Origin: a bacterium
GTDB lineage: Bacteria; JAMCPX01
Assembly (NCBI GenBank): GCA_021792615.1
Contig: JAJYUJ010000008.1
Coordinates: 1 to 64,000 of the forward strand
DNA length: 64,000 bases
Direction: 5' to 3'
Positions 4,560 through 5,695 of the stretch are shown here, in pieces; position 1 is the stretch's first letter; each line of letters begins with the position of its first letter. Both the position numbers and the translations under genes were made by a program. A model generated the notes under the pieces. That model was not told the origin of the DNA, searched no databases, and saw nothing but the letters and a program-made list of their open reading frames with translations.

Positions 4560-4645
4560 ATGGCCCGCGGGGTTTAACCTGTTACACCGATCATGGAAGA
4601 TAAATTGCGAATGCAGCTTGCAGCAATGTTACATTCATAACCCCG

Positions 4646-4735
4646 AAAAATGCGTTTGAAAAAAAAGGAAGTTTATGCAATGAGCGATAAGCCCGCGTCA
4701 CGTGACTTTCCCAATGAGTGCGGTTTTTTATCGAG
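4646..4735. repeat. Truncated copy of the AACCCGAAAAATGC-end repeat family
   Basis: One end is clear: CCCCGAAAAATGCGTTTGAA, then AAAAAGGAAGTTTATGCAATGAGCGAT and CCCGCGTC. This matches the right-hand arm of the 227-bp copies. The opposite terminus was not found on the far side of the adjacent nuclease cassette, so this copy is broken. Confidence 0.7.
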
Positions 4736-4771
4736 AAGGATATTTAGGGTATTGTCTGTTATTTTCCAATC

Positions 4772-4804
4772 CCCCTCTTAGATTAAGAGGGGTTAGGGGA
4801 GTTA
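4772..4804. repeat. Left inverted repeat of the DUF559 cassette
   Basis: A hairpin CCCCTCTTA-GAT-TAAGAGGGG (4772-4792) continues into TTAGGGGAGTTA. Positions 4785-4804 are the reverse complement of 5154-5173 with one mismatch in 20. The repeat encodes the last six residues (NSPNPS) and the stop codon of the nuclease gene. Confidence 0.85.
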
Positions 4805-5154
4805 CCTCTTTCTTTTATTTCATACAATACGCCTTCAATATTTTCCACAACATCATTGTTCCAGAATCGTATCACTTTTATCCCTTGTGCTCTTAAATAT
4901 TCAGCGCGTATATTGTCGTGTTTCTTGTTATCTTCTTCGCCATGTTGGCCACCGTCCAATTCAATAGCAAGTCTTAACTCTGAACAATAGAAATCAAGAA
5001 TATATTTCCCTATACTATATTGTCTATAAAACTTTAGTCCGTAGAATTGTTTGTTTCGTAAATGACTCCACAGAAGTTTTTCTGCATCTGTTTGATTATT
5101 CCTTAAATTACGTCTTGTTTCTTTAAATGTCGGGTCATTGTGTATAAATTTCAT
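4783..5154 (-). CDS. DUF559 (Vsr-like) endonuclease-domain protein
   Basis: A 123-residue protein of the DUF559 family, small single-domain proteins related to very-short-patch-repair nucleases of the PD-(D/E)xK fold. The core YILDFYC (Asp54), AIELDGGQH (Glu65, Asp67, Gln70, His71) and IKVIRFWNNDV is intact; LLWSHLRNKQFYGLKFYRQY is the usual N-terminal part. An upstream in-frame Met at 5313 is less likely: the family normally starts close to the KFIHNDPTF segment, and the extra residues would be repeat-encoded. The ATG at 5154 directly abuts the right inverted repeat, whose GGGGATAGGGGAG supplies the only ribosome-binding sequence, and the stop lies in the left repeat. The gene thus spans the cassette exactly. 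Function is not established for the family. Confidence 0.85.
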   Translation of the reverse strand: MKFIHNDPTFKETRRNLRNNQTDAEKLLWSHLRNKQFYGLKFYRQYSIGKYILDFYCSELRLAIELDGGQHGEEDNKKHDNIRAEYLRAQGIKVIRFWNNDVVENIEGVLYEIKERGNSPNPS

Positions 5155-5186
5155 AACTCCCCTATCCCCTCTTATCTTAAGAGGGG
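5154..5186. repeat. Right inverted repeat of the DUF559 cassette
   Basis: TAACTCCCCTATCCCCTCTT (5154-5173) mirrors the left repeat, and the hairpin CCCCTCTTA-TCT-TAAGAGGGG (5166-5186) is repeated with a different three-base loop. It contains the start codon edge and Shine-Dalgarno sequence of the nuclease gene. Confidence 0.85.
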
Positions 5187-5194
5187 AAACATTT

Positions 5195-5226
5195 GAAGAA
5201 CCACGTCGTAAACAACGTGGTTCTTC
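5195..5226. repeat. 12-bp palindrome next to the DUF559 cassette
   Basis: GAAGAACCACGT (5195-5206) is perfectly complementary to 5215-5226 around an 8-base loop. There is no T-run on either side, so it is not an obvious terminator. It is followed by CCCGCC-ATA-GGCGGG near 5269-5283, another repeat-like hairpin. From here to the DUF2249 gene (5230-5695) I see no convincing gene. Confidence 0.6.
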
Positions 5227-5695
5227 GTCAGTATGGAACATGTTAATTATATAGTTCGCCTTGACACTCCCGCCATAGGCGGGGGGGATTGCGGCGAACA
5301 CCCGTTCAATCATCCCTTCACTGTTGATCCAGTCAGTAAATACCGTTAGAAATTACCTTGTTCATTGGTAACTTTTATAAAGGCCAAGAGCGGCAATCGG
5401 GGTAAAAGTCGCTGGTAACTATTAACGTTGAGAAAAGGGGAAAAAACAAGGCGTAGTGCGGTTTTACACTCCTTTTTACAGGTAACATATTGACAAATCA
5501 ACCCGTTTAATTTGCTTTTAAAAAGTCGGAAACTCATGAACAAAGCCGGCTGGTCTCTTCAAAAATCGGAAAGGTTTTCATCAGGGCTGGTACAATTGAC
5601 GTATAGGAGGATATGATGATTTCGTACAATCGCTCTATGATCCGCATCATATACCTTCACGTCAGAACGAGTAATGTACAGCCTGGAGGGAAATC

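Follow-up and report, generated by a model that had tools for sequence, protein, structure and literature searches.

The nuclease cassette and its palindromic ends

The window, i.e., the whole stretch of 64,000 nucleotides that was analysed, carries a short intergenic cassette in which a DUF559 gene (translation MKFIHND...GNSPNPS*) is the sole gene between two inverted, REP-like hairpin repeats. The features of the cassette and of its two repeated flanks are as follows.

4703 to 4771, strand not applicable: repeated flank Y, also adjoining this palindrome at C41, C54, and C64 and in two relatives
4772 to 4792, strand not applicable: 3'-side REP-like hairpin CCCCTCTTAGATTAAGAGGGG, the minus strand of which gives the last codons and the stop
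4783 to 5154, minus strand: DUF559 gene of 123 aa for a solitary PD-(D/E)XK nuclease with a Vsr/EDxHD-like fold (from its translation, PF04480, and an AlphaFold2 model)
4793 to 4804, strand not applicable: G-rich tail of the 3' repeat (TTAGGGGAGTTA on the plus strand), retained in mini-elements
5152 to 5165, strand not applicable: tail of the 5' repeat (ATAGGGGAGTTATG on the minus strand), ATG included, retained in mini-elements
5166 to 5186, strand not applicable: 5'-side REP-like hairpin CCCCTCTTATCTTAAGAGGGG
5305 to 5540, strand not applicable: repeated flank X, also adjoining the palindrome at C63 and C41

Read on the minus strand, the order is hairpin CCCCTCTTAAGATAAGAGGGG, tail ATAGGGGAGTT, ATG, the 123-aa DUF559 gene, GTAACTCCCCTAA, and hairpin CCCCTCTTAATCTAAGAGGGG. 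The hairpins are CCCCTCTTA-GAT-TAAGAGGGG (4772-4792) and CCCCTCTTA-TCT-TAAGAGGGG (5166-5186), and the complete inverted repeat of the cassette, CCCCTCTTAnnnTAAGAGGGG(A/T)TAGGGGAGTTA, matches at 29 of 33 positions. The 20-bp inverted repeat (19/20) that an earlier note on this DNA had described as bounding the gene is the inner part, TAAGAGGGG(T/A)TAGGGGAGTTA, of this longer repeat. The placement of the gene ends given there was borne out by the translation, with the stop of ...GNSPNPS* lying inside the left hairpin and GGGGATAGGGGAGTT of the right repeat lying directly 5' of the ATG. The motif GGGGAG, 2 bases before the ATG, has a short spacing for a ribosome site and is a plausible candidate for that role. 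The inverted repeat scored 21; among 2220 control positions of identical geometry, taken from other loci, 0.09% reached a score of at least 20. Each repeat also folds as a single-stranded DNA hairpin of 9 bp with a 3-nt loop (z -3.0 and -3.7).

A profile search placed the window protein in DUF559 (PF04480; E 3.2e-37, 127.2 bits against a cut-off of 20.6). Its conserved residues are E25, D54, E65, D67, Q70, and H71, with E25, D54, E65, and D67 invariant across 41 DUF559 sequences. The AlphaFold2 model (pLDDT 87.8) matched, in order, 3hrl (Z 15.5), the homing endonuclease I-Bth0305I (Z 11.3; Foldseek E 2.9e-4), and Vsr (Z 10.2). The modeled core fold together with the acidic active-site residues assigns the protein to the PD-(D/E)XK superfamily, with catalysis as a prediction. 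By 2005, YcjD had been assigned to this superfamily and matched by profile to Vsr (PMC1189080). A Caulobacter DUF559 protein leads to DNA damage in cells that lack its partner cytosine methylase (PMC12907096), so DUF559 proteins are able to act on cellular DNA.

Flanks of the cassette and comparison with relatives

The cassette is flanked by other small repeats. A paralogous Y-palindrome-X site at C41 holds a single palindrome and no gene, which is compatible with either gain or loss of the gene. C64 and C63 end or begin within a second cassette, flanked as in the window, and are probably a single locus broken in assembly. The earlier note had raised the case of a cassette conserved in place in all relatives; beside the right-hand neighbor gene, found in 4 genomes, neither the cassette nor its flank sequence was present, and the gene order there differs. 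A clear target-site duplication of the cassettes was sought and none was recognized. Two further repeats lie close by, namely a 59-bp repeat at 4642-4700 (CCCCGAAAAATGCGTTTGA...GAGCGATAAGCCCGCG) that recurs almost unchanged some 20 or more times in the same genome and has further copies across the family, and a 117-bp repeat at 5193-5309 (GAAGAACCACGTCGTAAACAACGTGGTTC...GGCGGGGGGGATTGCGGCGAACACC), situated between the cassette and flank X, with many copies in the family genomes.

Dispersed palindromes and gene-less derivatives

The exact palindrome class CCCTCTTAN1-6TAAGAGGG occurs 18 times in the genome of the window (reversed control 0), and about 29 copies were found when up to 3 mismatches were allowed, compared to 2 for the reversed control. 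Fifteen palindrome pairs were read in this genome and its relatives, most of which have the form hairpin-tail-GTTATG...GTAACTCCC-hairpin and retain both gene ends (the ATG end and the GTAAC end) in the absence of the cassette middle. Internal gene sequence was also retained by C57 and C12:72084, corresponding to window positions 4769-4839 (87%) and 5091-5197 (83%). As judged from these sequences, the gene-less pairs are internal-deletion derivatives of the cassette. Gene-less copies sharing both ends of an autonomous copy, as defines a MITE, were thus present in the own-family genomes. Palindromes also occurred in G002 and G008, own-family genomes of 82-84% completeness in which a DUF559 match was sought and none was obtained.

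The same genome encodes a second DUF559 gene (L002) and a fragment (L003), both with palindromes different from those of the window. In the second gene (G000:C12:75131-75451), several copies of another palindrome are translated as part of the C-terminus (CCCCCTGATAAGGGGG, giving PPDKGDKGG), and a repeat of the GTCATTGCGAG...GAAGCAATC...CGCAATGACGG kind lies beside it (L002 1249-1340), similar to the CGTC-tagged repeats for which no transposase was found (PMC3733652).

DUF559 loci across bacteria

The survey comprised 77 DUF559 loci from genomes of many phyla, scored by the best inverted repeat around the domain (threshold at least 14) and compared with 2220 control positions of the same geometry in the same loci. 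Flanking inverted repeats were present in 62% of the loci compared to 0.36% of the controls, answering the concern of the earlier note that homologues might generally lack such flanks, while about 38% were without a strong repeat pair. A constant plan of C-rich arm, loop, G-rich arm, G-rich tail, gene, and mirror image was maintained across loci with varying sequence. This shared layout, together with the gene-less derivatives and the gene-less C41 site, upholds the view of the earlier note that a PD-(D/E)xK nuclease and its ends form a small unit. Chance or base composition as the source of the flanking repeats was ruled out by the in-locus controls and reversed patterns. Carriage of DUF559 was likewise rejected for phages (2 of 50,697 records) and for plasmids (44 of 72,556 records, several being of chromosome size).

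The palindrome type follows the DUF559 gene type, each with its own dispersed palindrome. The CCCTCTTA...TAAGAGGG type was found in all 9 own-family genomes plus G060 and G061 and was absent from the 24 other genomes (control 0). The CCCTCTCC type had 4-149 copies where the DUF559 is of that type (0-1 for reversed controls of dispersed palindromes) and 0 copies in G000, G003, G009, G013, and G080, and was also carried by a few genomes whose fetched DUF559 has a related type. Protein similarity correlated with repeat similarity (r 0.46; 0 of 5000 permutations). Among 119 Acinetobacter genomes, the palindrome was present in 62 of 71 with a solitary DUF559 compared to 14 of 48 without (p 8e-11), a count that includes the gene's own flanking copies and, as with the other genome-level tests, is uncorrected for phylogeny.

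The flanking pair is often decayed in Acinetobacter, where 20% reach a score of 14, and one decayed palindrome lies upstream of the Neisseria DUF559 gene. Flanking palindromes were sought and none found for E. coli ycjD. The weak Acinetobacter pairs and the repeat-free ycjD therefore point to lineages in which the unit has decayed or become domesticated. DUF559 domains within very long proteins had no flanking repeats (scores 8-10). The DUF559 frames of L032 and L052 are broken at the same place by a different repeat with ends ILSPKTRRQEEE, a nested insertion of another small element.

In-frame copies and the hrpA site

About one in four of 80 loci has its cassette within an uninterrupted host reading frame. 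The hosts are:

HrpA (L067, L069), ValS (L078, L118), and MetH (L105, L109)
IspE (L088), Mfd (L077), and HsdM (L075, L076, L084, L117)
MmeI (L083, L095) and a Mur ligase (L093)

The insert divides the family profile of the host while removing nothing or almost nothing from it (in ValS the profile ends at 591 and resumes at 590; in HrpA it resumes at 231), and the palindromes at the two junctions are translated into linkers, for example PSPSGRGAGGEG and LTPTPLPEGEG. Insertion into housekeeping genes is tolerated because palindromes and gene are read through without a stop. One Rickettsiales genome, AM-377-L16, has in-frame cassettes in both mfd (L077) and valS (L118), with tandem palindromes at mfd, which are possibly an autonomous relative of in-frame palindromic elements. 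Cassettes of three proteobacterial groups (L075, L084, and L117) appear to share one HsdM position, before Y.DIPGFCKS, as horizontal transfer or homing could produce.

The hrpA site was followed in the family of L069, where 11 loci with an empty site and 11 genomes with a full cassette were read along with single- and double-repeat inserts; these loci were chosen by match score and the counts are not frequencies. All inserts are multiples of three without a stop. They measure 450-594 nt and contain only DUF559 and translated palindromes, and Pfam scans for an intein-type Hint domain gave no match in them. On the hrpA tree, empty, repeat-only, and full alleles interleave, the full versus not-full state changes 10 times (at least 5 forced by strong branches), and two DUF559 clades conflict with the tree (AU p 8.5e-5 and 1.9e-48). 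The allele comparison points firmly to recurrent occupation of this site by cassettes. An unrelated in-frame palindromic repeat (GTAGGAGCGAGCTTGCTCGCG) occupies the same hotspot in L246, and the loop therefore accepts several element families.

Full hrpA alleles are alike, and unlike empty ones, only within the first 30 nt on each side, with an effect of +0.052 (2 of 500 permutations) on one side and +0.113 (0 of 500) on the other, and a synonymous Ala codon co-varies with the insert (p 3e-5). Short co-varying flanks are the expected trace of co-conversion in homing. Adaptation of the host protein could account for part of this flank signal but would not explain its synonymous part. The pattern expected of homing, in which a conserved site is occupied repeatedly and its flanks are co-converted, is thus an indirect, comparative finding at hrpA that concerns relatives of the window cassette, not that cassette itself.

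Mechanism and rival explanations

The association of DUF559 genes with flanking palindromes, the gene-specific palindromes, their dispersal, the deletion derivatives, the in-frame insertion, and the recurrent occupation of one hrpA site were observed, and the cassette is in our judgment quite probably a mobile gene resembling homing endonuclease genes and furnished with REP-like ends, in which cleavage, palindrome recognition, and repair-driven copying are inferred. The window cassette would then be an autonomous copy in a family of very small mobile elements, each composed of a solitary DUF559 and two inverted REP-like palindromes to which the nuclease would be adapted. The nuclease probably cuts or nicks at its own palindrome or at a target site that matches it. 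As in homing, repair templated by an occupied copy would then bring in the gene, its palindromes, and a few base pairs by co-conversion. An internal deletion would reduce the cassette to a REPIN/MITE-like pair of facing palindromes with both gene ends, and more extensive loss would reduce it to a single palindrome. The homing-like movement suggested in the earlier note is the best fit to the recurrent hrpA insertion with its short co-varying flanks, while the nuclease-induced repair that it invoked stays a supposition.

The main mechanistic rival retains DUF559 as the enzyme and has it act on single-stranded DNA hairpins during replication, as RAYTs do, in place of a double-strand break followed by homing. 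The hairpin with an asymmetric tail fits the REP plan, the cassette repeats fold as single-stranded hairpins, and dispersal to many unrelated sites exceeds what homing to one site needs; nevertheless, the fold is that of duplex endonucleases without a covalent tyrosine intermediate and the co-varying tracts at the hrpA flanks are short, and this route appears unlikely. Still less probable is movement of the REP system by RAYT (HUH/Y1) transposases with DUF559 as a passenger caught between two REPs, even though a gene between inverted REPs is the layout of REPtrons and a Y1_Tnp match was present in 29 of 32 genomes. None of the 20 RAYT/IS200 loci from the same genomes had palindromes of the DUF559 type, many having quite different inverted repeats, and G075 and G081 had 18 and 78 palindromes without a Y1_Tnp match, which together rule out RAYT-driven movement as a general explanation; the tracking of palindrome type with DUF559 type also speaks against it.

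The Vsr fold of the window protein, the DNA damage caused by the Caulobacter protein (PMC12907096), and the repeat-free E. coli ycjD would suit a housekeeping, Vsr-like repair or defense nuclease whose palindromes are regulatory hairpins (terminator or autoregulation). Such a role is very improbable, as it fails to explain the dispersed copies, the both-end deletion derivatives, the gene-specific palindromes, and the in-frame insertion in hrpA, valS, and metH. The in-frame copies could also be regarded as ordinary functional domain fusions unrelated to mobility, since several hosts are DNA-modification proteins (HsdM, MmeI) in which a nuclease domain could be useful; against the other hosts ValS, MetH, IspE, HrpA, and Mfd, the host profiles split with little or no loss between translated palindromes, and the interleaving of presence and absence among species, this idea has scarcely any credibility.

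The homing-like cassette therefore looks like an undescribed mobile element, as a nuclease-palindrome unit found in many phyla and even in frame in housekeeping genes. Whether such cassettes constitute an independent class, with a Vsr/EDxHD-fold nuclease and REP-like ends, homing into palindromes and conserved gene sites and living in frame in essential genes without splicing, is in our estimate evenly balanced. If so, a large proportion of the G/C-rich palindromic repeats without a known transposase would have in this class the autonomous partner that they lack at present. Many bacterial genomes hold dozens to hundreds of short palindromes of unexplained origin unless a RAYT is at hand, and many of these would be accounted for by a further widespread family of palindrome-matched enzymes that is unrelated to RAYTs. 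It would also give a testable role to DUF559, still labelled "unknown function." Unspliced in-frame nuclease cassettes in valS, metH, ispE, hrpA, and mfd would represent a new route of persistence for selfish genes and give rise to odd insertions in annotated proteins.

Comparison with known systems

No link of DUF559 to palindromic repeats and no description of the cassette was found in the open-access literature. Vsr shares the fold of the window protein, which differs in being encoded by a solitary gene with palindromes and in its pattern E...D...ExDGGQH in place of the FxH of Vsr. YcjD/COG2852 and PDB 3hrl (N. gonorrhoeae NGO0050) share family and fold (phmmer E 3e-21; Z 15.5), but unlike the window gene E. 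coli ycjD has no flanking palindromes and the Neisseria gene has the single upstream one. Rickettsia palindromic elements (RPEs) are likewise translated palindromes in frame in protein-coding genes, a likeness confined to the wider DUF559 family (PMC10969869). As described they include no transposase or nuclease gene, whereas here the palindromes bracket a nuclease gene, and the R. conorii RPE was assigned to the CGTC repeats that have no recognized transposase (PMC3733652).

Like the RAYT/REP systems (REPtrons and REPINs), the cassettes place one small gene between inverted REP-like palindromes that have an asymmetric tail, are accompanied by scattered palindromes, single or in pairs, of a type matched to the gene, and are mainly chromosomal (PMC3733652; PMC8266576). 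The cassette repeats differ in having no GTAG tag, the gene-less pairs in retaining both gene ends, and the copies in being frequently intragenic and in frame. I-Bth0305I, a homing endonuclease of the EDxHD/Vsr fold, has in common with the cassettes its fold, the recurrent occupation of one site, and short co-varying flanks, while the cassettes differ from such genes by having no intron or intein, their own palindromic ends, and many dispersed gene-less copies. To our knowledge, own palindromic ends, gene-less copies, and in-frame residence without splicing are not known in homing endonuclease genes. The cassette resembles both a REPtron and a homing endonuclease gene, having the gene between inverted REPs, the dispersed REPs, and the REPIN-like pairs of the former, but departs from what defines a REPtron by carrying a PD-(D/E)XK nuclease in the place of the HUH/Y1 tyrosine transposase.
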